Shown here: piece by piece, positions 29,672-48,494 of the stretch | Layout: each line of letters starts with the position of its first letter | How positions within the stretch are numbered: position 1 is the first letter of the stretch | Assembly (NCBI RefSeq): GCF_018141425.1 | Contig: NZ_CP058561.1 | Span: 682,001-746,000 of the forward strand | DNA length: 64,000 nucleotides | Direction of reading: 5' to 3' | Source of the DNA: Vallitalea guaymasensis | GTDB lineage: Bacteria; Bacillota; Clostridia; Lachnospirales; Vallitaleaceae | Program-made: the position numbers and the translations under genes | Notes under the pieces: model-generated | The model's input: only the letters and a program-made list of their open reading frames with translations | What the model was told of the DNA's origin: nothing | Database searches by the model: none

Positions 29672-30424
29672 TTATTTATCGTTACACAAAATCTGGGAAG
29701 TTATCAAAGCTGTTACTGGTATAATAAGTATTATTCCTACTCCACTACATAGAATCTGAAAAACTTCTGCACAGAACACTTTGTTGTTCAAGATATCTGC
29801 TATGGAATAATGCAGAGAGCTGAAATATATTATTAATGCCATGAATCCGCTTATGTATGCAAAAAATAATGTATTAGTCATTGTTCCCAAAATATCTTTA
29901 CCTATATTCATACCTGAATCAAATAAACTTTTCTTGGTAATAGATGAGTTTGTGTTATATAGCTCATTCATGGATGATGAAATTGAGATAGATACATCAA
30001 TTACTGCACCTAATAATCCTATTAGTATTTCGCATATGACTATAGTTGAAAAATTTAGCTTTATATATAAGGAAAGAGACGATATTGAATCGTATTGTTC
30101 TTTTCCAAATCCTTGTATTTTTGCACCCATTCCCATTTTATAGGTTATAAGTGTTGTAAAAAGAACAACTATTGTAACAGATATCAAGGATGATATAGTT
30201 TTCTTATTAAGACCGTTAATATAAAATAGAGTTATGGAACTAATAACTATACATATAACTATAGTAACTATAAGAGGATTTAACTTGTTAGCAATCAATA
30301 TAACCATGATAAAAAATATAAGGAAGTTGAAACATACTGTAAAAAATGATCTTACTCCTCTATCTCTCCCAACTACATACATCAACAAAAATAATATTAT
30401 CAACAATACTGCTATAACGCTCAT
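29672..30424 (-). CDS. YibE/F-like multi-pass membrane protein
   Basis: A 250-residue protein made almost entirely of hydrophobic helices (about seven). It has the YibE/F family segments IGLLGAVIDVSISISSSMNE and SLFDSGMNIGKDILGTMTNT. The family's function is not well established. It follows the larger paralogue at 30428 by 3 nt, and the two share the motif pattern G-G/A-x-x-D-x-x-I-x-x-S-S. They probably form a heteromeric membrane complex; that is inference. Confidence 0.85.
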   Translation of the reverse strand: MSVIAVLLIILFLLMYVVGRDRGVRSFFTVCFNFLIFFIMVILIANKLNPLIVTIVICIVISSITLFYINGLNKKTISSLISVTIVVLFTTLITYKMGMGAKIQGFGKEQYDSISSLSLYIKLNFSTIVICEILIGLLGAVIDVSISISSSMNELYNTNSSITKKSLFDSGMNIGKDILGTMTNTLFFAYISGFMALIIYFSSLHYSIADILNNKVFCAEVFQILCSGVGIILIIPVTALITSQILCNDK

Positions 30425-30427
30425 AAT

Positions 30428-31980: not shown

Positions 31981-34701
31981 TTAATTGATAAGTCCATATT
32001 TTATTTTTATACGGTCTAGTTTCTCAATCATTGGTTCTGATGCAAACCATAGGAAGAAAGAAGTTGCTGTTGCATGGATAATGTTGAAGGGAATACCTGT
32101 TGTATAGTAAGTCATCATGCTTTTTATAGTGGGTTTTGCTTGCCACATTAGTGCTGAACCGGTATCCAGTATAAAGCCACAGACAAAAAATGTAGTTAGT
32201 GCTCCAAATATACATAGTGAATTACGCCTTTTTATTAGGAGTCCTTTGCGAAATAATATTCCTGCGAGGAATCCTGCTATGCCAAAGGCGAACATCTGCC
32301 AAGGTGTCCATGTTCCTTGACCGAACATCATATTTGAGGTAAATGCTGTAACAGCACCTACTAGAAAACCTGTTTCGCCGCCAAAGCATACTCCAGATAT
32401 AATAACTATAGCTACGACTGGTTTGAACTGAGGAAGCATGAAGAATGCAGCTCTTCCAGCTACACCAATGGCACAAAGGACAGCAATGATAATAATTTCT
32501 CTTGCCTTAGGTTTTTTGCTCTCAAATACGAATATAAATGGCAGCATTGTTTCTAATAATATCATTAGACTTATAAAGTAATATTTTCTGTCTCCTAAGA
32601 AAAACACACCGCAATATATGGTTAGAGGTACTGCTACAAGTACCATGACCATAGCTATAAGGGTTCTTTTTGTAAGTTTTCGTTTTCCTTTTGGAACTTG
32701 TATAGAGAAATCAGGAGCATCTAGGTCTTTTCCTGGGAATATAGCTATAAGGGTTATTGCAAGTTCAGTAACTAATAAGAATTGAACCAGATAGTTTTTC
32801 CAATCATTATATTTATTCCATAGTAAAACAGTGGTTAATATGAATGCTATTAATCCTGCAATGGCTATTGTAATACGTGTGGGTGTTATTTTACATATGG
32901 GCTTATATTTAGTTTTGTCACATTTAGTTATTTTTGTTTCTTGATTATGACTAGATACTTCATCATTTACCTTTGAACACATAATTTCATCTCTTATGCT
33001 TGATGAATCATTAGTATGTATTTTACCGCCACAGGCTAGGATAACATCTTCTGCAAGAATTGCTTTTGGTAAAATCGTTCTTGACATACGATTAGTAGCA
33101 GTAGTGTAAAAATTTTTACCACAAAAAAAAGCTCTTGGTGTATCAATACTTGTAATTCGTCCATCAAAAAACATGGCACAGCGACTGGCATGTGCTGCAC
33201 AAAATTCAATATCATGGGATACCATGACTATTGTTATACCATCTGCTTGTAATTTCTTGAGTATATCTGCAAACTTTTTCTTGAAATACCCATCAAGACC
33301 TTTGGTTGGTTCGTCAAGCAATAAAATCTTGGGTCCTAATAGTAGTACTTTTGCTAGAGCTGCTCTTTGTTGTTCTCCCCCTGAGAGATCATATGGATGC
33401 ATATGTAAAAGACTTTTCAGTTCACATAACTTTGATACTGTATCTACCATATTTTTTTGTTCTTCTTTTGGAATTTTTCTTCCTGAGAGCATTTCATATA
33501 AATCCAGTTCTACAGTTTTCTTGACGAATAATGACTGAGGATTTTGGGGAAGAACTCCTATAAAATTAATTGAAGGTAATTCCTTTTTATTATTTATAAT
33601 TGAATCCTTATATATTTTTACAGTACCTCTATAAGGCTTTAATATTCCATTTATGATAGAAAGAGTAGTAGTTTTACCTGTACCATTTCCTCCTAGGATT
33701 GCAAAAAGTTCGCCTTCGCCAATGTTAATGGACAACCCTTTTATTACATCTGGCAGTTCTTTTTCATAGCGAAACCAAACCTCATCCATTTTTATGATAC
33801 AGTTTTTATTATTATTAATATTATCTTGGAAGATTATATTTTTATCAGCTATTTTTTCTATTATTTTGTTGTTCTTGGCATATTCATTAATCCAATTTCG
33901 TCCATCACGTACAGTAATAGGACATTCCAAATCATTGTTTATCCCTGCATAGATTCTCATAGGTGTAGGCATAGCAATAAACATATCATGATTCAACTCT
34001 TTTAGTTTCTGCCCTGCCATTCTTGGAGTATCGTCCACAATTATACTACCATTATCCATGACTATTACACGGTCTGAGACTGGGAGTGCATCTTCTAAAC
34101 GATGTTCTGTAAGTATTATGGTTGTTCCTAATTCTCTGTTAATCTTTTTTATGGTCTCCAAGAAATCTGTTGCAGCTATAGGATCAAGCTGGCTAGTAGG
34201 TTCATCCAGTATAATGACAGACGGCTGCATAACCATGACAGAAGCTAAGTTAAGTAACTGTTTCTGTCCGCCTGAGAGCTCTGTCACCTTCTTATGAAAC
34301 CAAGTCTGTATACCAAAGAAAGATGCCATTTCTGATACTCTTCCTCGTATTTCAGGTGTTCTATAACCAAGACTCTCTAGTCCAAAAGCAAGTTCATGCC
34401 ACACCTTATCAGTAACAATCTGATTATCTGGTGATTGCCTTACAAAACCTATTCTCTCTGTCTGCTGTCTTTGAGAAAGATTATCAAGTGGTGTGTTCTC
34501 GTAGTAAATCTCACCTTCTCTTGTACCACATGGCATAAGAGTAGATCTTAGATGTCTAAGCAAAGTAGTCTTTCCACATCCTGATTTACCACATATAGTT
34601 ATAAATTCACCTTGTTTTATTGATAAATCAATGTTTTTTAATGCTGGCTTATTTACCTTTGGATATGTAAAAGTTAAATCTTTGATTGTAATAGCTTCCA
34701 T
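31981..34701 (-). CDS. Fused ECF transporter: two ATPase domains plus S-component-like membrane domain
   Basis: A 906-residue fusion. Domain 1 (about 1-270) is an ECF ATPase with Walker A GKSGCGKTT, signature LSGGQKQL and Walker B VIILDEPTSQLD. Domain 2 (about 310-540) is a second ATPase with GGNGTGKTT, LSGGEQQR and ILLLDEPTKGLD. After a linker come several helices (about 605-900). The last ~200 residues resemble a substrate-capture S component, with REIIIIAVLCAIGVAGRAAF, FGGETGFLVGAVTAFTSNMM and FGQGTWTPWQMFAFGIAGFL. The gene overlaps the EcfT gene by 28 nt. It is the last gene of the cobalamin-riboswitch operon, so a cobalamin or corrinoid substrate is inferred. Family S components are normally separate proteins; the triple fusion is unusual. 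Confidence 0.88.
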   Translation of the reverse strand: MEAITIKDLTFTYPKVNKPALKNIDLSIKQGEFITICGKSGCGKTTLLRHLRSTLMPCGTREGEIYYENTPLDNLSQRQQTERIGFVRQSPDNQIVTDKVWHELAFGLESLGYRTPEIRGRVSEMASFFGIQTWFHKKVTELSGGQKQLLNLASVMVMQPSVIILDEPTSQLDPIAATDFLETIKKINRELGTTIILTEHRLEDALPVSDRVIVMDNGSIIVDDTPRMAGQKLKELNHDMFIAMPTPMRIYAGINNDLECPITVRDGRNWINEYAKNNKIIEKIADKNIIFQDNINNNKNCIIKMDEVWFRYEKELPDVIKGLSINIGEGELFAILGGNGTGKTTTLSIINGILKPYRGTVKIYKDSIINNKKELPSINFIGVLPQNPQSLFVKKTVELDLYEMLSGRKIPKEEQKNMVDTVSKLCELKSLLHMHPYDLSGGEQQRAALAKVLLLGPKILLLDEPTKGLDGYFKKKFADILKKLQADGITIVMVSHDIEFCAAHASRCAMFFDGRITSIDTPRAFFCGKNFYTTATNRMSRTILPKAILAEDVILACGGKIHTNDSSSIRDEIMCSKVNDEVSSHNQETKITKCDKTKYKPICKITPTRITIAIAGLIAFILTTVLLWNKYNDWKNYLVQFLLVTELAITLIAIFPGKDLDAPDFSIQVPKGKRKLTKRTLIAMVMVLVAVPLTIYCGVFFLGDRKYYFISLMILLETMLPFIFVFESKKPKAREIIIIAVLCAIGVAGRAAFFMLPQFKPVVAIVIISGVCFGGETGFLVGAVTAFTSNMMFGQGTWTPWQMFAFGIAGFLAGILFRKGLLIKRRNSLCIFGALTTFFVCGFILDTGSALMWQAKPTIKSMMTYYTTGIPFNIIHATATSFFLWFASEPMIEKLDRIKIKYGLIN

Positions 34702-35564
34702 CTTCTATTCTCCCAACTTTCTATTACTATTGGTGAAATGCAGAGTATTAGATAAGCTGTAAAAACACTTATAGAATAAGGTGTTATATCTGCACTCTTC
34801 ATACTTGGAAAATACCGAAAGTAGACTCTACCGAGCAAAGAACCTACAAGTACATATAACCCTGTTCCACCAATAATAATCAATGCTTTTTTGTCTCTCC
34901 TATCAAAATAATAGATGGAAAAGGCCGTCCTTCCATTTAGCCCATAACCACGAGTTTTCATGGAGTCTGCTGTTTCAATAGCATTCTCCAATGCCCAAGT
35001 AATCATGATTGATAAAATTTTTATTCCATATTTAGCTCTATTTATGATATTACCTTTTGATATATCTCTTCCTATACATTTTTGTCCGTTAGATATTATC
35101 TTAAGCTGTGCTTTAAATCTAGGCACAAATCTAAGCACCATGGATAAAACAAGAGATAATGCGGGTATTACTCTACCAAACAGATATATAAACTTGTCCG
35201 ATGTCATGATTACATTGTAACAATTGAACCAGCAAACTACAGATGCAAGCATAACAGCTGCGGCGATACCAAATGTAATTGATTCTAGTGTAAGAGGATT
35301 CCCACTGTCTAGATAAGTAAGTATAGTCACACCCTCATGGTTGAATGCTGGATTAACTAGTGCAGCTATTATCATCATAGGTAAAAGATATAGTAGATTA
35401 AAACGTATAGCTTTTTTTCCTCTAAGTGTCACTGAATAAGAAAATCCGCATACCAATGAAATAGCTAAACAAAGAGGATGCATGAAAATCATTGAGTAGA
35501 TGAATACAAAGGTAAAGTAGACAAAATTTACAATAGGATGATATCCTTCAAAAGCACTCCTCAT
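34674..35564 (-). CDS. ecfT: ECF transporter T component
   Basis: A 296-residue membrane protein of the CbiQ/EcfT family. It has about five helices and the coupling-helix region with ALENAIETADSMKTRGYG (about 190-207), whose Ala-x-Gly-type motifs seat in the two ATPases. It overlaps the DUF4430 gene upstream by 4 nt and the ATPase/S fusion downstream by 28 nt. With the fusion it completes an ECF transporter (A, A', S, T) in just two polypeptides. Confidence 0.88.
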   Translation of the reverse strand: MRSAFEGYHPIVNFVYFTFVFIYSMIFMHPLCLAISLVCGFSYSVTLRGKKAIRFNLLYLLPMMIIAALVNPAFNHEGVTILTYLDSGNPLTLESITFGIAAAVMLASVVCWFNCYNVIMTSDKFIYLFGRVIPALSLVLSMVLRFVPRFKAQLKIISNGQKCIGRDISKGNIINRAKYGIKILSIMITWALENAIETADSMKTRGYGLNGRTAFSIYYFDRRDKKALIIIGGTGLYVLVGSLLGRVYFRYFPSMKSADITPYSISVFTAYLILCISPIVIESWENRRWKLLQSKI

Positions 35565-36346
35565 AAGTCTCCTCCCAATGCTGAATATCCACCTACATCT
35601 ACTCCTAGATTACAAGTATATACCCATTCTATTACATCTCCCTCTTTTATCTGATAGCGACTACATCCATAGTTGGGAAACCAATCATTGACTTTATACA
35701 TCCACCCTGACAATTCACCACAATCAAATTCATAGAGGTTGTTTATACCTTCAACATAAGCACTATTATACATAGGAGTATTAACAAATTCCATGTGTAT
35801 CTTGTTCTTCTTCATCTCTCTGATTAATACATTGAAAACACTTTCTCCTTCATAAAAAGTGACATTATCCTGTTTAAAAATTATTCCATCCTCTGGTACT
35901 AGCTCAACTTTTTCTTTATCAAGCCAATTAATATTATCTAATATAGTATCACAACGTACTGACATTGCGCAGGTAAGCTCTTTATCAGTTATTTCTACGT
36001 TTTGAGGTTCTATAGGTATAGGTTTTCCTTCAGGTACAGGATCTGTAAGATATCTATCTTTGCCTGTATCCTCATCAATCTCCATACCTAAGGACACAGA
36101 ATAATCAGTATCACCTTTTTTAACTCCTGGTGAAGAACAATTGGTCAATTCTTTTGCAAGACTTATTTTTTCTTCTGCTGTCATTGAACCTTTCAGACCC
36201 CCAGGACGTGATTCCAGCTCTTTGGAATTATCAGTGGATACATTCCATCCTTGTAAACCAGGGGCATTCCCTCCCCACCAAAAAGCCACAGCAAGTACAG
36301 CAATAATTATAAAAAATACGATTACTTTAGTTTTATTTAACTTCAT
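35561..36346 (-). CDS. Membrane-anchored DUF4430 (transcobalamin C-terminal-like) protein
   Basis: A 261-residue protein. A single N-terminal helix (about 8-24) acts as uncleaved anchor or signal, followed by a linker and a DUF4430 domain (about 165-255). The domain shows GESVFNVLIREMKKN, YEFDCGELSGWMYKVNDWFP and GDVIEWVYTCNLG. DUF4430 is the domain also found as the C-terminal beta-domain of transcobalamin and intrinsic factor. It lies 14 nt after the toroid/SLH gene and overlaps ecfT by 4 nt. It is placed to hand ligand from surface proteins to the ECF transporter; this is inferred. Confidence 0.85.
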   Translation of the reverse strand: MKLNKTKVIVFFIIIAVLAVAFWWGGNAPGLQGWNVSTDNSKELESRPGGLKGSMTAEEKISLAKELTNCSSPGVKKGDTDYSVSLGMEIDEDTGKDRYLTDPVPEGKPIPIEPQNVEITDKELTCAMSVRCDTILDNINWLDKEKVELVPEDGIIFKQDNVTFYEGESVFNVLIREMKKNKIHMEFVNTPMYNSAYVEGINNLYEFDCGELSGWMYKVNDWFPNYGCSRYQIKEGDVIEWVYTCNLGVDVGGYSALGGDL

Positions 36347-36360
36347 TTTTGATACCCTCC

Positions 36361-38016
36361 CTATAGGAGCCTAGCATTATATAACATGTTATATATCATC
36401 CTAGCTATTTCACAACGTTTGATTGGTTCTTCAGGCAATATTTCCATGGTAGAAGAATCCAATATTTCTTTGTCATAGCAAAAAGCTAATGATTGTCTCG
36501 CCCATTTGTTAACTTTTACATAGTCGATAAACTGAGACAAGATATCTCTAGCTGCCATAGTATTATATTGTGTATTCATACCGCAGAGTTTTGCTGCTCT
36601 TGTTACTACCACTGCAGCTTCTTCTCTAGTGATAATGGCATTTGGAGCATAGGTTGTAGTTGACTTTCCAGAAATTATGCCATATGTATTAGCAGTACCT
36701 ATGTAACCTGCATACCACTTATCTTTTTTTACATCTATAAAGTTATCTATTGCTTTTGGTTTAAGACCTAATGCTTTGACAATGATAGAAGCAAATTCTC
36801 CTCGTGTCATAGTTGCATCTGGTTCAAATAAATCTTTAGTCTTTCCATTAATAATTTCTCTTGATGCAAGTGCTTCAATGGCTGATTGATTCTCATGTCC
36901 TTTGATATCTTTGAAAGTCTTCCCCATCTTAGTTATCCTAAGTTTTTTTATATCTTTATGTTTATTTTCAAGTCCTACACTATTAGCTATGCTACTTGTT
37001 TCTCCTATATCAAGTTTATTTCTCATACGATAAAGACTTTCTCTACCCTTTAATGCTCTCTGTACTGCAATAAGTCCATAAAACCCTTGTTCAGTTGCCA
37101 TTTGGTTAGAACCACTTCCATTTTTTGTATGAAGAAATCCATTACCTTTTTTATAGAAAGTCATAAGGTTATCAAGCATTGTATTACCGTTCTTGACAAA
37201 TCGTCTATCATCAACAGAAATTCCTAACTCACATAGAGCAACCAGCATTTGAACACAGCTTTCAGAATTAGCTGTACCCCAGCTTGAAAAACCTCCTTGG
37301 CTATTTTGCATTTTTGACATACATGCAAGAGCCTCTTCACATGCTTTTTTCACCTCTGATTTGTATTGATATTTTGCTAGTGCTTGAAGTGCCATACCTG
37401 TTATATCTGGGTCTGAAAAGCTATCACCAATACTTTGGGATGTAGTTCCACCAAATAGTGACCAGCCACCATCAGCTAACTGACATTCTAGAATTCTATT
37501 TATGTACATATCTCTTGTTGCTTGTACCTTGGCATTCTTATTTTTAGGCATTGGGTAATTGCCACTATCAAGAGCTATTAGTGCCCATATAGGTCCGTTC
37601 ATTCCTTGCCATATAGTTTTATCATAATCACCAAGAGCCTTTAAAAGATTATATCCTCCTACATCTGAAGGATCTTTTCCTATAGAAGTAAGGGCAACAA
37701 TGAGCCTTGAATATTCAGTGTATTTTTTCTTATGTAAAACTCCTTTACATGCTTTCACGTAGTTTTCTACAGTCTTATAATAATTCTTATAGTATTTATC
37801 TGGTATATCATAACCACTTCTTGCAAGTCCTAATACAGCCCATTCACCACCAATTGAACCTACTTGTGGCGATTTTACTGTTTTGTACATATATTTTCCC
37901 GTATCTATAATAGCAGCATCAAGTTCAATTGTACTTGTGGCGAAAACATAAGTATTAAAACTTAATAACATAGTAAATATTAGTAAAGCACTTATACCTT
38001 TTCTTAGTAATTTCAT
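36361..38016 (-). CDS. Exported alpha/alpha-toroid protein with SLH anchor (transcobalamin alpha-domain-like)
   Basis: A 551-residue exported protein. The signal peptide (about 1-26) is followed by an alpha/alpha toroid of the prenyltransferase/squalene-cyclase repeat type (about 30-340). Its repeats include ILECQLADGGWSLFGGTTSQ, DPDITGMALQALAKYQYK and MSKMQNSQGGFSSWGTANSE. Three SLH motifs (about 385-551) such as MTRGEFASIIVKALG anchor it to the cell wall. The same toroid forms the N-terminal domain of animal transcobalamin and intrinsic factor, and its placement with DUF4430 proteins behind a cobalamin riboswitch makes cobalamin binding the best guess. No cyclase DxDD motif was noticed, arguing against terpene chemistry. 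Confidence 0.82.
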   Translation of the reverse strand: MKLLRKGISALLIFTMLLSFNTYVFATSTIELDAAIIDTGKYMYKTVKSPQVGSIGGEWAVLGLARSGYDIPDKYYKNYYKTVENYVKACKGVLHKKKYTEYSRLIVALTSIGKDPSDVGGYNLLKALGDYDKTIWQGMNGPIWALIALDSGNYPMPKNKNAKVQATRDMYINRILECQLADGGWSLFGGTTSQSIGDSFSDPDITGMALQALAKYQYKSEVKKACEEALACMSKMQNSQGGFSSWGTANSESCVQMLVALCELGISVDDRRFVKNGNTMLDNLMTFYKKGNGFLHTKNGSGSNQMATEQGFYGLIAVQRALKGRESLYRMRNKLDIGETSSIANSVGLENKHKDIKKLRITKMGKTFKDIKGHENQSAIEALASREIINGKTKDLFEPDATMTRGEFASIIVKALGLKPKAIDNFIDVKKDKWYAGYIGTANTYGIISGKSTTTYAPNAIITREEAAVVVTRAAKLCGMNTQYNTMAARDILSQFIDYVKVNKWARQSLAFCYDKEILDSSTMEILPEEPIKRCEIARMIYNMLYNARLL

Positions 38017-38113
38017 AATTATTATTCCTCCTTATACACATATATACAAAGTGAAATAGAGGGACAACGTATTAATTAACGCTGTCACCCATATTCCTAA
38101 ACTATTACTATGA

Positions 38114-41100
38114 TTATTCTACTATGTTTTCCATGAATCTCTTAAGCATGGAAGCTACCTCGCCTCTAGTAGCTGTACCTTGTGGTACAAGCATATTCTC
38201 AGTTGAACCACTGATAATTTTATTACTGACTGCCCACTTCATTGAATGGACTGCCCATTCTGATATCATATTATTATCAGGATAAGTTGAAATATCGCTA
38301 ATTGAAGTAGTTTTATAACCTTTTAATTTTGCATAACGATACATCATAGTAGCTATTTGCTCACGAGTAATATTATCATTTGTCCCAAATGAATCATTTG
38401 AATAACCATTTACTATTTTACTATAAGTAGCCCATACTACAGAATCATAATAGGTTGAACCTATTTTTATATCCTTGAATAAGTTATCCTCTGTTACCTG
38501 TAGATCACCTGCCATTTTATAGATTACATTTACAAACATACCACGAGTCATATTTTCATTAGGTCTGAACATATTGTTTGATATATCATCTAATAACCCT
38601 TGTTCTACTACATATAATACTGAATCATAATACCAATCAGTGGTAAATACATCTTTAAAGCTTATCTTGTCTTTATCATAAACTATGGCAAAAGTTGAAA
38701 AATGATCTGTCTTGAATATCATACTTTCACATTCATCATCATAGTAGGCTCCTATCATTTTAGCCACCTTATTGTTATCATTAATATAGTAAACTGAAAG
38801 CTTGTTAATATCTTCATCTTCCTTTGGTATATAAGGTAAAGCTACTGTGACATCACCTACAAACTTAGTGATTATCTTATTATCTACTTTTATGTATAAG
38901 TTATATATAGGCTTATCACCAACTAATTCTTTATTTTTATTAGATAACTGTTCTTTATCCGTCTGCTCTACAATTATACTTACATTAGAACCACTTGATT
39001 CTATTATTGAGTTTAAAGCTTTATTAGAGATCTTTATTTCAGCAACATGTGATTTAGCAGTTAATCCAGCATCTGTATTCTTAGCCAAATCATCAATTAT
39101 TGATTTAGCCAGTTTAACAACTACTTTATCTACATCTTTTTTAATTACTGGTTCAATAATCAATTCTTCAGCTTGATTCTTCTTAATATCCTCTATTGCA
39201 TTTTTTGCTTGACTACCAGTTATAGTTAATGTTGCTGTATTACCTGAAATACTAACTTCAGGTTTTAATTTGATAAATTCTTCCTTTTCTTCTTCTGGCT
39301 CTTCTGTGTTACCCATTATTACAGAAGGTGAATCATTTTCTGAATCAAAAGCTCCAAGTTCTTTCAATCGTTCAATAGCTGCATTATAGTTGGTTACATC
39401 TGCAACAGTTATGTATAGTTTTTGTTCTGATGACAGTTTCTTGTATGCAGAATCAGCTGCCATCACTTCTGATTTATGCCTTAATTTTACTCTACCTGCT
39501 AGAGGAATTTTCTTAAGGAGTATTTTAACATTATAGGTTTCTCCATAGAATAATAACTGATTTTCTGCATCAATTAATCTACTTAGATTCGTTACTTTCT
39601 TCTTATCATTTGATGACAATTTGTTATAGTTACTTCTAGCTGCCTTAACTGCTTCCTCATAACTCTTATAATTAGATAGTTTTATTTTATTTTGTACAGG
39701 TAATCCTTCAATCAGCTTATTTACATAATTTGCTTTACTGTTATATACCCTTATAGTATATTTTGTTGCATCATACTCTCTTGCCTCTTCACCTTGCTTA
39801 TTCATTGAAGGCCAGGAATTCTCACCTATACCTATATAAATGATATCACCATTTTTTACAGATAGGGTTTCGGTACGTTTATAATATGCCGAACTTGAAT
39901 TATATTGATTCAAAAAAGTCTTAACCAAATAATTTTTATTATAGGCTGTTGGTGTAATCATTATATTTTTGGAATCACCATCAATCATCAGTCCATATTC
40001 AGTAGTATTTTTCTTGAAGGTTGGTGATAGTTTTCCTCCACTAATAGTAAGTGTTTTCAAGGATGTATCAGAATTTCCCCATGTACCTCCTAAGTCTTTA
40101 CCAAGGTTTTGAGTAAACATTACTTTAATTTCATCCCCGTTTTCCAGACTATAATCTTTGTTGGAAGCTCCTGCTCTAAAAGATTGAAAACCTTCATTGA
40201 CAAACCAGTCATTTAGTGTACCCATCCAGCCTGAACCTCTATCGCCTGAAAACTCACCCATACTTTTATCTCCTTTATTTATGGATGATATATAGGTAAT
40301 ACCGTAATTAGTACCACCTGTTCCTTCCCAGCTATATCCATTCACAGCTAATGCTTTCAGAACAACTGTCATCATGGTATCATTCTCACATAGATCATAC
40401 CAACCGTTTATAATTGTTCCTTTAAAATCCCCACTGGGGAAAGTCTCATTTTCTATAGTTATCTTTACCTTTCCAATTACGTTTCCATAGTCAGGTAACT
40501 TAGTACCACAATTATCATCTTTCGTTGGAATAGCTGCCATTGCCGCAAGTGCCGCTCTACGAGCGGTTGCTACAGCAACTACATCAACAGCATTATTAAT
40601 TGCTGTTATCCCATTATCTTTAGCCTGAGTAAGTCTAGTGAAATCATCATCCAAATAGTCTTCACTGTGATAATTTGAATAAGTCGCTATTACAGCATTT
40701 CTAGCAGCCTCTTTGGCATTATTTAACTTTGTTTCATCATCAATTGTAGGTTCGTCACCACCTATTGACCTTACAATTATAGTTACGTCGTGATGAGGCA
40801 TTAAAAATTCTCCAAGGATGCTTTTATAGGGACTATGCATTTTATAAACACTTATATCATCTGAAAAACTCTCTACTACACATGTATCTCCTACAATGTT
40901 TCTTCCCTTGTATCGTAAACCTACCTTAATATTAGCTTTAACTTCTCCAACAATTTTTGTTGGTCTAGCAGAACTTATGATATTACCATCTACCATACAA
41001 TATAAATGTTCATTAAATTGATTGAACTTATTGGTTTCATCAATGATAGTAAGTTTATATTTTTTAGATTCTGGTAAATTATTTCCATTATTAGAATCTG

Positions 41101-43708
41101 CGTATGCCTTTAATAGAGATTTAATATGTCTGTCCTCTAAAAAAGTGAATAACTTCTTCTGATATTCCGTCAAAACATTGTATTTAGAAAATAGTTCTTC
41201 TAATTTAGGTATATCTGATTGGCAGAGCCTGTTTTGATCCATTTCATCTATAGATGGCAGATATTTTAATACTTCCCGTATAGGTGTTATAACTGTTTTA
41301 TGGTCTATGGATTCTATGCTTTTCATACCATTAACAGCTGTATCAAATGCTGTTTTTGCTTCGTATGGTGTTACTGAATTAGTAATTTTAGTGTTACCGT
41401 TTTCATAAAATCCAGAAAGCTCTTTCCATTTATTAGCGTCATAGTTAGTTTGTCTATAGGAATAATATGCTTCTTCTAGTTCAGTCAGCATTTTATCTTT
41501 AATTATCTTAGTTTCATTTTCAGTAGCTGGGTTTACATGTACAAGTATAGTATCTCCTGCTATAACTCCTGTAACAGTAACCTTTTTACTTTCAAGATTA
41601 TTTGCTTCCTTATGATGAACACTTAATGAATGCCAACCTTCCTCGTAAAAAGTGTAATTACAGTTACCATTATCATCTGTAAAAGCAGTAGTTTCCTTAT
41701 TTGCAGTAGTTATTTTATTCTTTTCTTCTACAGCAGAACTTACAAAAACCGTAGCTCCTGTAAAAGGCTCATCTTTTCCTGTATAATCACTAAGATTAGC
41801 AGCAACTGAGCTTACATTAAATGAAATTGCTTGTCCGGCTCTTGTCTCTACTACATTATTATTCATATTTTCATTAGTGATTTTTGACAGTCTAACATAT
41901 GGAAGTACTTTGTATGCTTCATATCCCTCTAGATTAGCTCCACTTGAAGAACCATGCCTTGGTGCGTCTAAATATGCTACAACGACTTCATCCTTATCCT
42001 GTACTTTTATACTGCTTAATGGATATTGGGATGTACCTATTGAATCACCAAGATTCAAAGTAAATAATGCTGTTAAATCATGGCTTGGTGCATCAATCAT
42101 AATTCCATTAATAAAAATTCCATAGTCCCCATGTATGTTAATACCATTAATCTGGTTGAAAACATCTTGTAAAGATGCGCCACTAGAGAGAGTTAAATTA
42201 TAGATACCTGATTTTGTATCAAAAGCTTCTTTTTTTCTAGCAGCAGATGTATCTATTACCTTAAAAGATACATTTATTTTTTCTTTTGTTGATGTCAAAC
42301 CATAACATGATTTCCAATAATCGTCGTAAACTTCTTTTAGTTTTTCATAAACAGGTATTCCTGTTGTACCATTAGGCTTTTCATTATTATCTAACCAATC
42401 CGTTGCTATGTTTCTTTGTTGTATGAATGTTACAAAGCTGTCTGAAGTATAATCAGATTCTATAAGTTCCTCTGGATTAAATTGATTTATTAAAGCTTTT
42501 AGGTTCTCATATTTTTCCCCCGCATCAATTAAATCGCTACCCGAAGGATCATTAGCATTTATTAATTTTTTTAGTCCTGTAATTGCTTTGTTTATTTTTT
42601 CAGTATTTGTATCAACTTCAGATTGATAAGTGTTTTTATTAATGTCAGTTGGCTTACCTTTATCTTCACCATCTTGAATGTAAAGAGAAGTAAGTACTGT
42701 TTTAGCATTGTTCAGTACGTTTTGATATGCTGACCATGACTTGGCTGTATATATGGATGAATCATTATATGTATTTTCTGCATTTTTTATAGCTTCGTAT
42801 AGTAATGTTGGGTTAACATTAGTAATTGGAATTAAGCTATTAATTGCAGATTGAAGATTAGTAGTTGCTGTATCGACATTCTCTTGAGTAATACCCGCTA
42901 TTAAATCATTTTCAGGATTATTATCAATAAACAGCTTACTTACATTAGCTAACTCAAGCTGTAGATTATTATAAAAGCCTTTTGATTTGTCGCTGGAATT
43001 TATCGTACTGGAATCATTTCCATTATATCTATCATCAATTGTATAGTATGTCTCGGAGGATACTAATCTTGCTTTGTTAATACAATCTTTTAAGATAGAA
43101 TCATCAATTTTTGCAGTTGACGATTCACCTATCTGAACAAGAATTACTGCTTTTAATTTTACAGGTACTTTATATTCGTAAATGCATATTTCTTGATATT
43201 TTAAATTAGGGTCAAAACATATATCTGTATATTCTTCTTGTAATTTCTCTTGATCAATTGGAAATCCAGGTGTATATGATAAGCTAATTGTATATTCTAG
43301 TGTTTCTACATTAAAACAGTTTGTAATATAACGTCTTAACTGTCTGCTACTTACATTATTATATTTCAGAAAATTTTCACTTGAAATTCTTGCATTAGAT
43401 TTAACACTATTACCTGTAATCTGTTTTCTTGCACCACGAGGTGCTAAAAAATGTGTATCAGTTGATAAACTATTAAATTTTACATTAATCGACTGTGTAT
43501 CTTTTGGTACAGAAATAAAATATGCTCCTAATGAAGATGGCATATCTCCAGTTTCAGTAATTTTCGTCAATGTTAAAGAAGATTCCTGAGATAATGTAAC
43601 TGATACTGGATTTAGTTCTTCAGCATTGGTATTTATAGCTACCATATTAAAGCATATAATTAATACAATTAAAAATGAGATGAAAGATATTTTATTATAG
43701 TATTTCAT
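38114..43708 (-). CDS. Giant S-layer-anchored protein with DUF4430-like domains
   Basis: A 1864-residue exported protein. The signal peptide is at about 1-28. A helical region (about 230-460) has FIVAR-like repeats (ATTNLQSAINSLIPI, INKAITGLKKLINA). A first DUF4430-like domain (about 475-585) contains LSSGASLQDVFNQINGINIH and DEVVVAYLDAP. Later there is a clear DUF4430 domain (about 1075-1215) with SGWMGTLNDWFVNEGF and GDEIKVMFTQNLGKDLGG, then a cadherin-like beta-sandwich (about 1215-1320, LKTLTISGGKLSPTFKKNT). Three SLH motifs (about 1680-1864) close the protein. It is the second gene of the cobalamin-riboswitch operon. I infer a surface corrinoid-binding scaffold; binding is not shown by the sequence. 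Confidence 0.82.
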   Translation of the reverse strand: MKYYNKISFISFLIVLIICFNMVAINTNAEELNPVSVTLSQESSLTLTKITETGDMPSSLGAYFISVPKDTQSINVKFNSLSTDTHFLAPRGARKQITGNSVKSNARISSENFLKYNNVSSRQLRRYITNCFNVETLEYTISLSYTPGFPIDQEKLQEEYTDICFDPNLKYQEICIYEYKVPVKLKAVILVQIGESSTAKIDDSILKDCINKARLVSSETYYTIDDRYNGNDSSTINSSDKSKGFYNNLQLELANVSKLFIDNNPENDLIAGITQENVDTATTNLQSAINSLIPITNVNPTLLYEAIKNAENTYNDSSIYTAKSWSAYQNVLNNAKTVLTSLYIQDGEDKGKPTDINKNTYQSEVDTNTEKINKAITGLKKLINANDPSGSDLIDAGEKYENLKALINQFNPEELIESDYTSDSFVTFIQQRNIATDWLDNNEKPNGTTGIPVYEKLKEVYDDYWKSCYGLTSTKEKINVSFKVIDTSAARKKEAFDTKSGIYNLTLSSGASLQDVFNQINGINIHGDYGIFINGIMIDAPSHDLTALFTLNLGDSIGTSQYPLSSIKVQDKDEVVVAYLDAPRHGSSSGANLEGYEAYKVLPYVRLSKITNENMNNNVVETRAGQAISFNVSSVAANLSDYTGKDEPFTGATVFVSSAVEEKNKITTANKETTAFTDDNGNCNYTFYEEGWHSLSVHHKEANNLESKKVTVTGVIAGDTILVHVNPATENETKIIKDKMLTELEEAYYSYRQTNYDANKWKELSGFYENGNTKITNSVTPYEAKTAFDTAVNGMKSIESIDHKTVITPIREVLKYLPSIDEMDQNRLCQSDIPKLEELFSKYNVLTEYQKKLFTFLEDRHIKSLLKAYADSNNGNNLPESKKYKLTIIDETNKFNQFNEHLYCMVDGNIISSARPTKIVGEVKANIKVGLRYKGRNIVGDTCVVESFSDDISVYKMHSPYKSILGEFLMPHHDVTIIVRSIGGDEPTIDDETKLNNAKEAARNAVIATYSNYHSEDYLDDDFTRLTQAKDNGITAINNAVDVVAVATARRAALAAMAAIPTKDDNCGTKLPDYGNVIGKVKITIENETFPSGDFKGTIINGWYDLCENDTMMTVVLKALAVNGYSWEGTGGTNYGITYISSINKGDKSMGEFSGDRGSGWMGTLNDWFVNEGFQSFRAGASNKDYSLENGDEIKVMFTQNLGKDLGGTWGNSDTSLKTLTISGGKLSPTFKKNTTEYGLMIDGDSKNIMITPTAYNKNYLVKTFLNQYNSSSAYYKRTETLSVKNGDIIYIGIGENSWPSMNKQGEEAREYDATKYTIRVYNSKANYVNKLIEGLPVQNKIKLSNYKSYEEAVKAARSNYNKLSSNDKKKVTNLSRLIDAENQLLFYGETYNVKILLKKIPLAGRVKLRHKSEVMAADSAYKKLSSEQKLYITVADVTNYNAAIERLKELGAFDSENDSPSVIMGNTEEPEEEKEEFIKLKPEVSISGNTATLTITGSQAKNAIEDIKKNQAEELIIEPVIKKDVDKVVVKLAKSIIDDLAKNTDAGLTAKSHVAEIKISNKALNSIIESSGSNVSIIVEQTDKEQLSNKNKELVGDKPIYNLYIKVDNKIITKFVGDVTVALPYIPKEDEDINKLSVYYINDNNKVAKMIGAYYDDECESMIFKTDHFSTFAIVYDKDKISFKDVFTTDWYYDSVLYVVEQGLLDDISNNMFRPNENMTRGMFVNVIYKMAGDLQVTEDNLFKDIKIGSTYYDSVVWATYSKIVNGYSNDSFGTNDNITREQIATMMYRYAKLKGYKTTSISDISTYPDNNMISEWAVHSMKWAVSNKIISGSTENMLVPQGTATRGEVASMLKRFMENIVE

Positions 43709-43743
43709 TAATATTCACCTACTAGTAGTTTTATTATTCAGTA

Positions 43744-43763
43744 AGGGACTCTAATGAGTCCCC
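43744..43763 (-). terminator. Short hairpin between the first two B12-operon genes
   Basis: GGGACTC and GAGTCCC form a perfect 7-bp stem with loop TAAT in the 72-nt gap after the first gene. No T-run follows on the minus strand, so it is more likely a processing or partial attenuation site than a full stop. Confidence 0.4.
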
Positions 43764-43780
43764 TAAAACATTATTTTTAT

Positions 43781-46132
43781 TTATACTTCTGGATAAACGA
43801 ATTTAAATACTGTAATATAAGGAGATTCTGCACCATTTTGAGTAATGATTTGTACATATTTAATATCTCCTCTAGCTAAAGTTAATGATAACTCATATGG
43901 TGTAGTATCATCACAAGTTACTTTTGTTCCATTAACATATACATTATCAGCGATACTATAAAGTTCATATTCAACTATACCATCTTCTAATGTAACAGTC
44001 TGAGTACTCATATTACTTGTAGTAACAGTTAAATCAGTCATGTAGTCAATAACTGTTGGTAAACCTGTTACCGCTTCTCCATCACCTGTACCAGTAGCTT
44101 TTTTAATACCACAAACTTCAGTAGAGATTTCACCGAATATACCATTCATAGCTGCAGCCCCTGTATAAATACGTACAAAACGAATATTATCTAGATTAAC
44201 AGGGTTTCCGTTTGCATCTACTGCCCAGCTGATATCAATAGGGTCTCCTCCGCCTGTCCCATTAATGTAAGTATTATAATTAAAAGTTGAAGTAATTGCA
44301 GCTACTCCATATGGATTATATGCTATTGATTTATCTCCGCTACCATTAGGGTGAACATCACAATAACCGAAACCAAAACCAGTAGTTGTGTTAGTAGATG
44401 TAATACTGCCAAGCATTGTACCTGTTAATGTCAACTTGTTATGTGAATCATTATAGTCTGCAAATGACAATTTGTTTGTCTTGTCTAAAGCAGGGTTACC
44501 GTTTCTTCCTGTAAAGTAGTTACAATTAAGTGGGAACCAGCTGTGATTATGGAAAGTATTTTTTGTGATTGTTCCAGTTGCACTACCAGTATAATTAATA
44601 GAATCTAATTTCCCAAGATTATTTCCTGCTTCTGTATATTTTGTATTATCATTAGGATTAGGATTTTCATAAGTTAAACTAAAGTTCTTTTTAGTAGTAT
44701 TTTCATAATATAATGAACCTGCAATATCATACCAAGTATCAGGATTTCCCTGACTATCAGCTTGTGCTACTTGAATACAACCTGGTTCAGAGTTATTCCA
44801 GAAAGCATTACCATATACTATAAAATCCACACCATATTTATTATTAGGGTCGTTATCAATATTTTTCATATCAAATACTGTATATCCACCAAAATATCCT
44901 AGTGATACACCTGTAGATGAAACATTATCTGCCATTAATTTAATACCATCTGTACCTGAAAGATAGATGTCTCCCCATCCACCAACAGTCACACCTTCAT
45001 TAGTAAACTGACCAGGAGCAGGTAAAAATGCGTAAACAGATGGATCTCCTGCAACGATAGGAGCATCACAAGTGAAGGCAAAATCGTATATTCTCTCTGC
45101 ACCATTTTTTGCAACTTTAATCGAGAAACTGTGATTTCCTGCTGTACTTGCAGAAATTACATTACCTGCAAATGAAATATTGGAATCAGTAGTACTATAA
45201 GTTACTGTTGCATCACTTGCCATAGCAACAGGTTCTATAATGAAAGTAGCTGGAACAATATCACTACCTGTAGTTGATATCAAAGTATAGCTTGGTACAT
45301 AAGGATCAAAAGGAGCAGATACTGCTACACTTTCATTAAAAGTTACTTTACTAAGAAGAATATCATTATTGATAGAAGCATTAATGATAGTTTCTCCCAG
45401 AGCTACTTTTTCAGTAGCTTTCACAGCATTATCTGAACCATTTAGTGCATTTACTGCGCTACTTGTATTGATACCAAAGGAATCAGCTATAGCTATGACT
45501 TTTTCTAATCCTTCATTTAGCTCTGTTGTATAAGCATCATAATCAGCTACAACTTCTATAGGCATATATGTACTAATACCGCCAGTACTTTTCATTTCAA
45601 TACCAGCATAATCTGATAGCTTTACTGGTGTTGTTAATGGAGTACTTAAATTCTTAGGATTAACTGTTACATTTGCATTTCTAACAAATGGTACACACAT
45701 GTTAATACTTTTTTCTAGTCCTTTCCAAGTATATTCTTTACCATTTAGAACCTTAATTTTACCATCTGCAATTATTAAACTATAATCACTAATTGTAGCT
45801 AGTACATCTGTCTGATAGTTGTTAATAGTGTAATACTGTATATATGCATTGTCTGGAACAATACAACTGCCAGGTGCTACAGCTCCCATTTTTCCATTAA
45901 TCTCATATAATACTGTCCATGGATAGCTTTGACCTGTAATACGAGTATATATACTTTCTACTGTGTCTCCGTCTTGTGTATTTACTGTAGGATTTGGATT
46001 TGTTGCACCTGATAAATAAACTTCTACATTTGTAGGTGCTGCTGCTTTTGCAGTAAGAGGCATCATTGTAAGAATCATTGCCACTGCAAGTAAGATTGCA
46101 CAACTTTTTCTTTTGCTTCTTGATAAAATCAT
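43781..46132 (-). CDS. Exported protein of unknown function, first gene of the B12-riboswitch operon
   Basis: A 783-residue exported protein with a signal peptide (about 1-31, ending AKAAA) and no SLH motif or lipobox. The middle part (about 365-690) is distinctive: GVSLGYFGGYTVFDM, NKYGVDFIVYGNAFWNNSEP, GCIQVAQADSQGNPDTWYDI and KKNFSLTYENPNP. It is flanked by beta-sandwich-like segments (about 275-360 and at the C-terminus, DLTVTTSNMSTQTVTLEDG). I do not recognise a named function for this part. The start follows GAGGAGG. Its position directly behind the riboswitch makes it the most cobalamin-responsive gene. It may be released or held by the SLH-anchored partners. Confidence 0.75.
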   Translation of the reverse strand: MILSRSKRKSCAILLAVAMILTMMPLTAKAAAPTNVEVYLSGATNPNPTVNTQDGDTVESIYTRITGQSYPWTVLYEINGKMGAVAPGSCIVPDNAYIQYYTINNYQTDVLATISDYSLIIADGKIKVLNGKEYTWKGLEKSINMCVPFVRNANVTVNPKNLSTPLTTPVKLSDYAGIEMKSTGGISTYMPIEVVADYDAYTTELNEGLEKVIAIADSFGINTSSAVNALNGSDNAVKATEKVALGETIINASINNDILLSKVTFNESVAVSAPFDPYVPSYTLISTTGSDIVPATFIIEPVAMASDATVTYSTTDSNISFAGNVISASTAGNHSFSIKVAKNGAERIYDFAFTCDAPIVAGDPSVYAFLPAPGQFTNEGVTVGGWGDIYLSGTDGIKLMADNVSSTGVSLGYFGGYTVFDMKNIDNDPNNKYGVDFIVYGNAFWNNSEPGCIQVAQADSQGNPDTWYDIAGSLYYENTTKKNFSLTYENPNPNDNTKYTEAGNNLGKLDSINYTGSATGTITKNTFHNHSWFPLNCNYFTGRNGNPALDKTNKLSFADYNDSHNKLTLTGTMLGSITSTNTTTGFGFGYCDVHPNGSGDKSIAYNPYGVAAITSTFNYNTYINGTGGGDPIDISWAVDANGNPVNLDNIRFVRIYTGAAAMNGIFGEISTEVCGIKKATGTGDGEAVTGLPTVIDYMTDLTVTTSNMSTQTVTLEDGIVEYELYSIADNVYVNGTKVTCDDTTPYELSLTLARGDIKYVQIITQNGAESPYITVFKFVYPEV

Positions 46133-46180
46133 TTTCTTTCCTCCTCGAATTTTGTTTACTTAGTCATATGTTCCGTGCAC

Positions 46181-46206
46181 TAAAAAGGACACTCCTAAGA
46201 GCGCCC
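46181..46206 (-). terminator. Riboswitch-controlled intrinsic terminator
   Basis: On the minus strand GGGCGCTC and GAGTGTCC pair (8 bp, two G-T pairs) around loop TTAG, followed at once by TTTTT. It lies between the aptamer and the first gene, where an expression platform belongs. Confidence 0.7.
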
Positions 46207-46280
46207 TGACATACTTGGTTTAGAACATAAAGATTCCACCTATTTATGCCTTCCAACCTCAGGGATTTGCATTACATTTT

Positions 46281-46503
46281 AACAAACAGAGTGAGAATAT
46301 CCCGACTTAGCCATTTGCCACTTACAGTGTGGTTTTCCTACTAAGACACCTTCCCGATTATTCCACAACTAAAATGGAATTCTCAGTGGTATATTGTCCT
46401 TTCGTTGACATTACGGTTGCTGAGACAGTGTCGGATTTTCACCGAAGAATATTTAATATTCACTCACAACTAATTATTGTGACCTTCCTCTCAAACTGCC
46501 TTT
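46281..46503 (-). promoter_or_regulatory. Cobalamin (B12) riboswitch aptamer
   Basis: Read on the minus strand, the leader shows the conserved core in order: GGTGAAAATCC (ending near 46432), CTGTCTC, then CAGCAACCGTAA (46411-46422), and the closing AGTCGGGATATTC (46295-46307). A P1 stem forms between CAG..GAGA near 46490-46500 and TCTC..CTG near 46283-46294. These match the known cobalamin riboswitch consensus (GGTGAAAATCC, GCAACTGTAA, AGTCAGGATACCTGCC-like) with small departures. It lies about 150 nt upstream of the first of six genes. Bound cobalamin would be expected to favour the terminator and shut the operon off. Confidence 0.85.
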
Positions 46504-46602
46504 ATTAAATTTTTTTGTAAATACCTACAGTAGTACACTTGATACATATACTATTAGGTCCAAGAAAAAGCAAAATAATATTTTCTCTTTCTCGACAGCT
46601 AC

Positions 46603-46631
46603 ATTGTAACATTTTGTTTGATTAATGTAAA
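46603..46631 (-). promoter_or_regulatory. Promoter of the B12 operon
   Basis: On the minus strand TTTACA (46626-46631), a 17-nt spacer and TACAAT (46603-46608). A start near 46596 gives a leader of about 460 nt containing the whole riboswitch. Confidence 0.6.
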
Positions 46632-46829: not shown

Positions 46830-48494
46830 TTACTTTATTAACATCATATCCAATTGACCAGGTATACTAGGAAATTCTACAGTTGATATAACGTCTTTAT
46901 TATATAATGCTATTTGCTTTTGATATGATATTGGTATGTACATTGCACTTTCATGTAATTGTTTTAAAATACTATCATAACAATTCTTAATTTCTTTTTC
47001 ATCATTTATAGAGAATAGCTTTAATATTTTTTCATCTAAATCCTTTTTATTATCTAACCCTTGCTGTGCAGGATTGTCTAGACTATAACTCATCATACCA
47101 CCGATATATGTATGTGGATCATATGGAGCTGCATAAGTTGCATTGAAAGAAAGATCAAAATCACCTTCAAATCCTCTTGAACCCCAAACCATTAACTCAA
47201 CACCATCTAATTTTACATCAATACCTATCTCTTTCATTTGAGAAGCAAAAACTTGAGCAATACTTTCTTCTGCACCTCTACCTGTTACATACATAAGATT
47301 TAATGAAAGCTTATTACCATCTTTCTCTCTGATTGTTTTACCTTCTGGTAATGTCCATCCTGCTTCATCTAAGATCTTACAAGCTTCTTCTTTATTATAT
47401 TCGTAAGGTTCCACTTCTACATCACAGTAAGTTAATGATGGATTTAATATTGTATCCGCTTTGTTTTCTATATCTAATAGAACTGTTCCTATAATAACTT
47501 TTTTATTAACTCCACATAATATGGCTTTTCTTACATCCATATCTTTTAATACTTCATTAGCTGTATTCATTAAGATACTTCTAGTTTCTGATTCACTTTC
47601 TGAGCAAGCTGTTCCAATCTTTTTGTTATCAGTAAACTGTGCATAAGCTTCATATGATAATTGTTTTGCACCATATATAAGGTCAACATCACCACTTTGT
47701 AATGCCATAACTCTTGAATCATGATCAGGTATTACTTTTACTATAACTTTTTTATAGGCTGGTTTATCTCCCCAATAATTTTCATTTACAGTAAACACAT
47801 ATTGCTGATCTTTTATAGCCTCTGTTAATACATAAGGTCCTGTACCAACACTACTTTTTAGGATACCAGCTGTATTACCATCATCTGGCATGGAATTAGG
47901 ACTAATCATTCTTATAGGAAACTGAGAACACATATCAAGAGTTGCAGCGTAATATGGCTCTTTGTATACGAATTTTATTGTGTAATCGTCTACCACTTCA
48001 ACTTTATCTAATTTTCCAATAGCTCCCATCCATGAGAATCTATCCGCATTTAGTAGTATTCCATCCATGTTTTGTTTTACTGCTTCAGCATTCAATGGAA
48101 GCCCATCTGAAAATTTCACATCTTCCCTTAGTTTGAAAGTATATTCTTTTCCATCAGGAGTAGCTTCATAGCTTTCTGCTAAATTAGGTACTGCTTTTTT
48201 ACCATCATATTTTAATAATGATTCATATACAAGCCCTAAAATTTCATGACTGTATCCATCTTCTGATGTAAGTGGACCAAAATTATCTAGATCGCTTGCC
48301 CAAGCAATAACTAATTCATCTTTTTGTGCATCATCAGTAGCTTTTCCTTTATTGTCTGCATTATCTTTTTTAGCTGTGTCATTAGCAGCATTATCATTTG
48401 ATACAGATTTTTCATTATCATCAGATTTTGAACAACCTGCTAATGATAATGTAAATAACATTGTTATTAGTAAAATACTTATAATTTTCTTCAT
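46830..48494 (-). CDS. Extracellular solute-binding lipoprotein, NikA/CntA/OppA type (SBP_bac_5)
   Basis: A 554-residue lipoprotein. The signal peptide ends in lipobox SLAGC (cysteine near 21). A low-complexity Asp/Lys/Asn linker (about 24-55) is followed by the family-5 binding fold with NLAESYEATPDGKEYTFKLR and EDVKFSDGLPLNAEAVKQNM. It closes the operon starting at 55316 (two ABC half-transporters, two permeases, two ATPases, receptor). It is a clear paralogue of the receptor at 8925, so the cell has two importers of this kind within 40 kb. A metal chelate is the favoured ligand type; specificity is unknown. Confidence 0.9.
   Translation of the reverse strand: MKKIISILLITMLFTLSLAGCSKSDDNEKSVSNDNAANDTAKKDNADNKGKATDDAQKDELVIAWASDLDNFGPLTSEDGYSHEILGLVYESLLKYDGKKAVPNLAESYEATPDGKEYTFKLREDVKFSDGLPLNAEAVKQNMDGILLNADRFSWMGAIGKLDKVEVVDDYTIKFVYKEPYYAATLDMCSQFPIRMISPNSMPDDGNTAGILKSSVGTGPYVLTEAIKDQQYVFTVNENYWGDKPAYKKVIVKVIPDHDSRVMALQSGDVDLIYGAKQLSYEAYAQFTDNKKIGTACSESESETRSILMNTANEVLKDMDVRKAILCGVNKKVIIGTVLLDIENKADTILNPSLTYCDVEVEPYEYNKEEACKILDEAGWTLPEGKTIREKDGNKLSLNLMYVTGRGAEESIAQVFASQMKEIGIDVKLDGVELMVWGSRGFEGDFDLSFNATYAAPYDPHTYIGGMMSYSLDNPAQQGLDNKKDLDEKILKLFSINDEKEIKNCYDSILKQLHESAMYIPISYQKQIALYNKDVISTVEFPSIPGQLDMMLIK

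Follow-up and report, generated by a model that had tools for sequence, protein, structure and literature searches.

We analysed a 64,000-nucleotide stretch of the Vallitalea guaymasensis genome (NZ_CP058561.1, positions 682,001 to 746,000, or G000:C1:682001-746000 in our genome set; hereafter the window), which lies within a 5.6-Mb single-contig genome. Six co-oriented genes on its minus strand, with a cobalamin riboswitch core and then a terminator-like hairpin at the 5' end, very probably form a cobalamin-controlled operon for corrinoid scavenging in a Gram-positive-type cell, combining capture at the cell surface with import by an energy-coupling factor (ECF) transporter. Cobinamide is probably among the scavenged corrinoids, besides cobamides. 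Judged from sequence, the evidence supports a genuine operon for the capture and import of corrinoids that recurs across genomes in association with riboswitches, as a variant of a system predicted by Burroughs et al. in 2007 (PMC1796856). The features of the operon, in window coordinates and in the direction of transcription, are as follows.

46603-46631, minus strand: promoter-like site TTTACA-17-TACAAT, with TG before the second hexamer (consensus scan)
46298-46446, minus strand: cobalamin riboswitch aptamer core (RF00174, 40.2 bits, gathering threshold 31.5, E 1.1e-6)
46186-46207, minus strand: intrinsic-terminator-like hairpin between the riboswitch and the first gene (1 found, against 0.2 +/- 0.5 in shuffles)
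43781-46132, minus strand: exported 783-residue protein (open reading frame; hydrophobic N-terminus; BtuH-type match)
44099-45040, minus strand: BtuH-type domain, residues 365-678 of the 783-residue protein (PDB match, conserved contacts)
38114-43708, minus strand: 1864-residue surface protein with DUF4430 and SLH (open reading frame, Pfam, family profile)
40085-40471, minus strand: DUF4430-type domain, residues 1080-1208 of the 1864-residue protein (family profile, 69.9 bits)
38126-38662, minus strand: SLH domains, residues 1683-1861 of the 1864-residue protein (PF00395, 95.8 bits)
36361-38016, minus strand: 551-residue surface protein with alpha/alpha toroid and SLH (open reading frame, Pfam, structure model)
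37018-37911, minus strand: alpha/alpha toroid domain, residues 36-333 of the 551-residue protein (family profile, AlphaFold2 model, Foldseek)
36376-36918, minus strand: SLH domains, residues 367-547 of the 551-residue protein (PF00395, 92.5 bits; 6bt4, E 6.8e-10)
35561-36346, minus strand: 261-residue membrane-anchored DUF4430 protein of the transcobalamin beta-domain type (open reading frame, Pfam, Foldseek)
35588-36022, minus strand: DUF4430 domain, residues 109-253 of the 261-residue protein (PF14478; family profile, 257.8 bits; Foldseek)
34674-35564, minus strand: EcfT (CbiQ-type) transmembrane subunit (PF02361, 30 bits, cut-off 25)
31981-34701, minus strand: 906-residue EcfA-EcfA'-S fusion of two ATPases and a substrate component (PF00005 twice, PF12822, TIGR04520)
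31984-32715, minus strand: CbrT-type S-component domain, residues 663-906 of the fusion (profile against PDB, 6fnp_A)

The substrate class is indicated by the transporter. In Pfam, the 906-residue fusion shows two ATP-binding cassette (ABC) domains and a membrane S-domain, and its ATPases match TIGR04520 over two stretches (365.8 bits, cut-off 315). A profile was built from 34 S-domains, picked by eye for spread out of 60 listed, and compared with all PDB sequences. It gave a single significant match, 6fnp_A (E 1.9e-13), with an alignment covering profile positions 68-241, while the other match stood at E 0.087. The 6FNP entry is ECF-CbrT, for which import of both cobalamin and cobinamide was shown experimentally (PMC5997447). 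Homology of the S-component to CbrT thus constitutes direct homology evidence for the substrate class. This agrees with a first-pass annotation of the sequence, which had recognized both EcfT and the ATPase-ATPase-S fusion and proposed that the ECF transporter imports corrinoids. CbrUVT has been named as a B12 uptake system in a paper that calls the identification of transporters an open problem (PMC6593275).

The cassette looks common. We scanned 84,980 species genomes with a 13-sequence DUF4430 alignment and obtained at least 598 pattern matches; at least 567 of these code for a relative of the DUF4430 protein, a figure that counts such relatives and not whole cassettes. Eighty loci, the best of these when ranked by DUF4430 likeness alone, were analysed; many are truncated by contig or stretch ends, so that counts of absence are upper bounds. 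Our two surveys of loci overlap by two (L041 = L121 and L045 = L058, by shared sequence), and G008 and G120 are one genome. The toroid was found in 73 of the 80 loci, EcfT in 72, the S-component in 58 and SLH in 74; toroid, DUF4430, EcfT and S-component were all present in 56, and 20 had toroid and DUF4430 in one open reading frame. Of the 72 loci with EcfT, 66 have it no more than 100 bases from the small DUF4430 gene, a tight linkage that fits a delivery role of the membrane DUF4430 protein. Similarly, of the 72 loci showing a separate toroid gene, 70 have that gene at most 200 bases from the DUF4430 gene. When 100 loci were taken together, 28 open reading frames carried both domains; of 28 neighbouring domain pairs with the toroid first, 13 are separated by at most 41 residues, and the opposite order, DUF4430 then toroid, occurs in 11 neighbours. 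Among the named records of the 80, Vallitalea sp. McD1.25 (L058) is the closest relative, with a 94% identical DUF4430 protein. Record titles also name Flavonifractor, Butyricicoccus, Sporobacter, Pelotomaculum, Sedimentibacter and Candidatus Formimonas warabiya, and four are of Paenibacillus; Paenibacillus silvestris 5J-6 (L124) is a named strain with the cassette. In four loci (L079, L115, L129 and L135), the stretch separating EcfT from the ATPase-S fusion holds inserted genes of 325-332 codons that resemble one another by eye, two of them in L079; L135 has a further inserted gene whose start resembles what we take to be an ATP-pyrophosphatase motif.

The riboswitch core noted in the first pass is recognized by the covariance model, and the terminator and the six co-oriented genes were likewise found as it had described them. 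The hairpin reappears in the computed fold of the leader RNA; the fold as a whole has no significance (z -1.57), and the promoter-like site is weak (6 found in the consensus scan, 5.3 expected from shuffles). Linkage of the riboswitch to the cassette was assessed in 59 genomes, the window's own and relatives, of which 22 have DUF4430. Thirteen of the 22 have an RF00174 match on the 5' side of a gene of the DUF4430 cassette and co-oriented with it (G000, G003, G005, G010, G013, G017, G025, G027, G029, G030, G038, G044 and G051; that of G029 scores 28.8 bits, below the cut-off, and for G017, G025 and G030 the assessment used coordinates alone). The chance expectation is about 0.0015 per 3 kb, calculated from 88 RF00174 matches in about 177 Mb of the 59 genomes (rounded sizes). 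The first pass had suggested such a search of genomes for the co-occurrence of toroid, DUF4430, EcfT and cobalamin riboswitch.

The loci were also scanned for a riboswitch-core pattern co-oriented with a cassette gene and within 1.5 kb 5' of it. The pattern was present in 33 of the 80 loci and in 31 of the 53 evaluable ones, i.e. those in which the first cassette gene lies more than 600 bases from the locus end. With up to 3 mismatches allowed, the pattern matched 57 times in 100 loci and once in a single mononucleotide shuffle of them. Of 14 pattern-positive loci checked with Rfam, 13 were confirmed, L096 being the miss, and of 6 pattern-negative evaluable loci 2 proved to have a riboswitch (2 of 7 with L041 added). 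The pattern fails on the window's own Rfam-detected riboswitch, and its counts are therefore lower bounds. Two Paenibacillus loci, L112 and L113, have divergent surface-protein genes, each with its own strong cobalamin riboswitch of 106-116 bits (L112:18065-18263 and 8030-8226; L113:20637-20835 and 7994-8190). At L056:9356-10617, a sub-threshold cobalamin riboswitch (28.8 bits) is accompanied by a DUF4430 lipoprotein and by an S-component that the family profile recognizes, and neither toroid nor EcfT was found in the 20-kb stretch; this is possibly a minimal unit.

The first gene provides evidence at the level of residues. Pfam assigns its 783-residue product to no family at E up to 0.1, but residues 364-678 match 7biz_A (E 2.8e-21) and 8blw_B (E 3.1e-18). 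We take 7BIZ to be the BtuH2 structure, since the code occurs in PMC8941943 and the contacts reported there land on the right letters of the chain. The C-terminal domain of BtuH2 binds B12, with polar contacts by Gln333, Asn399, His476, Tyr510, Trp511 and Trp577 and van der Waals contacts by Phe401 and Leu578 (PMC8941943). Counted along the printed alignment, a single offset of 100 fits all seven contacts inside it, His476 falling beyond the aligned stretches. Gln333, Asn399, Phe401 and Tyr510 correspond to the identical residues Q375, N442, F444 and Y590, of which Q375, N442 and Y590 are invariant in all 11 aligned family sequences, the window's included (near-identical copies L045 and L058 were left out of this alignment). 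In 9 of the 80 loci, a BtuH-type domain and DUF4430 are found within one polypeptide. The first pass had described this protein as exported, which its hydrophobic N-terminus supports, but had missed the B12-binding domain.

The 261-residue protein passes PF14478/DUF4430 (66.3 bits, cut-off 23.8), a family matched by 79 of 80 aligned family members at E up to 0.1, and has an N-terminal hydrophobic segment without lipobox, so that its earlier description as a membrane-anchored DUF4430 protein holds. For the 1864-residue protein, described in the first pass as DUF4430/SLH, Pfam recovers SLH but shows no DUF4430 at E up to 0.1; the DUF4430 assignment comes from the family-built profile. The C-terminal 189 residues of the 261-residue protein were modelled from an 80-sequence alignment, with a mean predicted local distance difference test score (pLDDT) of 83.2, the first 17 and last 6 residues falling below 50. 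When this model was compared with the PDB by Foldseek, ranks 1-17 were all transcobalamin, haptocorrin or intrinsic factor, with E-values of 1.1e-6 to 1.7e-5 by rank order and 2.5e-5 at rank 17. With the isolated beta domain of transcobalamin (5no0/5np4), the template modelling (TM) score by target reached 0.75 and 0.79; by query, scores were 0.45-0.48, the modelled chain lying partly outside the domain. Ranks 18-19 go to 3u7z, from Ruminococcus, whose entry bears the title 'putative metal binding protein'. In addition, part of human transcobalamin-2 itself scores above the PF14478 cut-off (28.3 bits against 23.8).

The toroid of the 551-residue protein has sub-threshold Pfam matches only (SQHop_cyclase_C, 18.9 bits, cut-off 26.1). 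A model of residues 25-345 from a 74-sequence alignment has a mean pLDDT of 94.6 and a predicted TM score (pTM) of 0.92; it is helical, with 15 listed helical pieces of at least 4 residues, and Foldseek pairs it with alpha/alpha toroids and other helical barrels. Combined with PF00395, this corroborates the alpha/alpha-toroid/SLH protein of the first pass. The 22 matches at E up to 0.001 mix B12 carriers, terpene cyclases, prenyltransferases and glycan-degrading enzymes: the last occupy ranks 2-3 (TM score by query up to 0.64), transcobalamin:CD320 ranks 4-7 (0.56-0.57) and haptocorrin rank 21. The first pass had also proposed that the two halves of a transcobalamin are split over separate surface proteins, and had recommended structural comparison as a check. 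On that comparison the DUF4430 half stands, having the beta-domain fold, but the toroid half, with its mixed matches, is not specifically transcobalamin-like. Elsewhere, L041:2978-8287 (= L121:982-6291) encodes a 1769-residue surface protein with six toroid-profile matches in one chain; its genome has the cassette and no RF00174 match.

These parts suggest the following course of events. From the class of the riboswitch, high intracellular cobalamin would favour the downstream terminator and switch the operon off. At low cobalamin, the BtuH-type B12-binding protein would be exported along with the two SLH-anchored proteins, which would carry transcobalamin-type halves, the DUF4430 beta domain and the alpha/alpha toroid. 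All these exported proteins may bind corrinoid at the wall. The membrane-tethered DUF4430 protein would probably carry or receive the ligand and present it to the CbrT-type S-component, and the latter, by homology to ECF-CbrT, is predicted to import it through the EcfT/EcfA-EcfA' motor. We infer a hand-off from wall to membrane, with toroid and DUF4430 closing on the ligand from two anchors. A bolder proposal can be made tentatively, and with rather more doubt than conviction: that the operon is a Gram-positive counterpart of the BtuB-BtuG-BtuH surface of Bacteroides, in which three different folds (the BtuH-type domain, transcobalamin-type DUF4430 and the toroid) relay corrinoid through the wall and a clamp of S-layer toroid and membrane DUF4430, a split transcobalamin, closes and delivers it to the CbrT-type S-component, and that the one-chain toroid-DUF4430 proteins of relatives are the nearest living relatives of the protein from which animal intrinsic factor came.

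The idea in outline is not new. Burroughs et al. (2007) defined a transcobalamin-like clade and described toroids fused into surface proteins of Gram-positive bacteria, the operons also encoding a CbiO-like ATPase, a CbiQ-like membrane protein and, often, a second paralogous surface protein; they predicted scavenging of B12 or its precursors, noted that such bacteria usually lack key B12 enzymes, and proposed transfer to animals (PMC1796856). The window operon has the parts by which their SLBB transcobalamin-like operons are defined, a secreted toroid and transcobalamin-like domain with CbiO- and CbiQ-like genes. Novelty in outline was accordingly rejected, and the view of the first pass that wall-anchored capture would be a new solution has to be given up, having been in print as a prediction. 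Our additions are the riboswitch, the CbrT-type S-component, the BtuH-type domain, the SLH anchors, and the splitting of the halves over proteins with separate anchors. The main text of PMC1796856 does not use the words riboswitch, SLH or S-layer, and among the open-access papers listed by our searches none reported, by title or start of abstract, an experimental test or a combined transcobalamin-like/BtuH system. The operon offers a case in which every part is named and a residue-level binding hypothesis exists, it joins the transcobalamin-like domains of the 2007 prediction with a Bacteroides BtuH domain, and it would help to test the proposal that animal transcobalamin was acquired from Gram-positive bacteria.

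Several observations weigh against corrinoid scavenging as set out above. The riboswitch match is partial, spanning only positions 51-166 of the 189 in RF00174. Nine of the 22 DUF4430 genomes (G006, G008, G033, G043, G047, G053, G054, G056 and G058) have no RF00174 match beside DUF4430, and G008, where the cassette is present, has none in its genome; by the pattern, 22 of the 53 evaluable loci have no core. The BtuH-type domain was found in 11 of the 80 loci only, and in the window's copy Trp511, Trp577 and Leu578 are replaced by C591, I665 and F666; since Q375, N442 and Y590 are conserved, this would mean that the nucleotide-loop contacts are retained and the corrin-ring contacts partly lost. 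The DUF4430 profile finds transcobalamin-2 in the PDB at E 0.65, fourth of six chance-level matches. The toroid profile matches squalene-hopene cyclase (E 3.9e-18) and alpha-2-macroglobulin, with no transcobalamin or B12 carrier among the 57 sequences that it finds at E up to 10. Two of 74 toroids match PF01122, at best with E 0.0056, and the window's is not one of them. On these profile matches and the PF01122 result we rejected the toroid as a transcobalamin alpha domain; it is no closer to transcobalamin than other alpha/alpha toroids. From the profile and Foldseek results, its corrinoid-binding role rests on pairing with DUF4430 and not on its own likeness. The host genome retains a cobI/cbiL gene, so that its own corrin synthesis is possible. 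Finally, the ATPase part of the fusion passes the cbiO model TIGR01166, 'cobalt ABC transporter' (250.6 bits, cut-off 211.8).

This last point would also suit a system in which cobalt or another metal is the substrate, moved by a CbiQ-type EcfT and surface metal-binding proteins; the family name of PF02361 ('Cobalt transport protein'), the title of 3u7z, the nearest bacterial structure to the DUF4430 model, and a nickel-type ABC operon next door (TIGR02294, 492 bits) point the same way. However, the S-component matches CbrT, no CbiM-type family occurs among the 25 of the fusion's 40 Pfam matches that were listed, the first gene has a B12-binding domain, and the structures nearest to the DUF4430 model are those of B12 carriers. 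We consider a metal substrate highly improbable, and cobalt or metal import as the main function was rejected on account of the CbrT-like S-component. Only slightly less remote is the capture of protein-bound corrinoid from a host or neighbour, with the surface proteins acting as receptors for a carrier: these proteins are large and multidomain, and the titles of many of the 80 records mark them as metagenome assemblies from gut or rumen, but the domains resemble B12 binders and not carrier receptors, and the cassette is also present in Paenibacillus and the Vallitalea group, which are environmental organisms.

A more serious competitor, although still unlikely, accepts corrinoid import and makes the toroid/SLH proteins structural or glycan-binding parts of the wall, the ligand being touched only by the BtuH-type and membrane DUF4430 proteins. 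The toroid's sequence kin (terpene cyclases and thioester domains) and the glycan-degrading enzymes at structural ranks 2-3 would agree with this, as would L056, with its riboswitch-like element, DUF4430 lipoprotein and S-component and no toroid found, and the 7 of 80 loci without a toroid, some through a contig end. Against it stand the close spacing of separate toroid and DUF4430 genes in 70 of 72 loci and the 13 of 28 one-chain neighbour pairs in which DUF4430 follows the toroid within 41 residues, which is the domain order of transcobalamin, where both domains sandwich B12 (PMC1796856); the opposite order also occurs, in 11 neighbours. Surface capture by both halves followed by ECF import remains the reading that we prefer.

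Within the operon, the listed plus-strand open reading frames of at least 100 codons (33173-33538 and 38847-39176) are nested inside its genes. Beyond its end, 29672-31582 holds adjacent membrane-protein-like open reading frames of 250 and 384 codons, an arrangement also seen in L058; upstream, the separate nickel-type ABC operon ends at 46830. The latter belongs to one of two similar blocks in the window (935-4426 with 8925-13907, and 51839-55316 with 46830-51860), each comprising two half-transporters of an ABC exporter type and an ABC importer of the nickel/opine type encoded by five genes. The NikA model scores 492 bits in one, above the cut-off of 393, and 367 bits in the other, below it. 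Counterpart proteins are 30-46% identical, by which the blocks are taken to be old paralogues, and they possibly serve metallophore export and import. Elsewhere in the genome, two divergent cobalamin riboswitches (G000:C1:4044299-4044504, minus strand, and 4044739-4044885, plus strand) lie a few kb from below-cut-off matches to cobI/cbiL models (24-66 bits, at 4049-4052 kb).

The operon thus resembles four known systems, each in part. With the operons of Burroughs et al. it shares surface proteins of toroid and transcobalamin C-terminal type and CbiO/CbiQ-like genes (PMC1796856), but its host retains cobI/cbiL. ECF-CbrT of Lactobacillus delbrueckii likewise has EcfT, two ATPases and the S-component to which the window's is homologous (PMC5997447), whereas here the S-component is fused to both ATPases and encoded in a dedicated operon. 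The likeness to BtuH/BtuG of gut Bacteroidetes lies in the BtuH-type B12-binding domain, with three of six polar contacts invariant in the family (PMC8941943), and in a surface-exported, riboswitch-controlled cobamide locus (for Bacteroides, PMC13398666); by contrast, the window operon has ECF import in place of a TonB-dependent transporter, and in 9 of the 80 loci of its relatives the BtuH-type domain is fused to DUF4430. Finally, the DUF4430 domain shares beta-domain fold and Pfam family with animal transcobalamin, intrinsic factor and haptocorrin, and the toroid, by its mixed Foldseek matches, is probably of the same barrel class, although its profile matches include no transcobalamin; unlike in the animal proteins, the two halves sit on separate wall- and membrane-anchored proteins.

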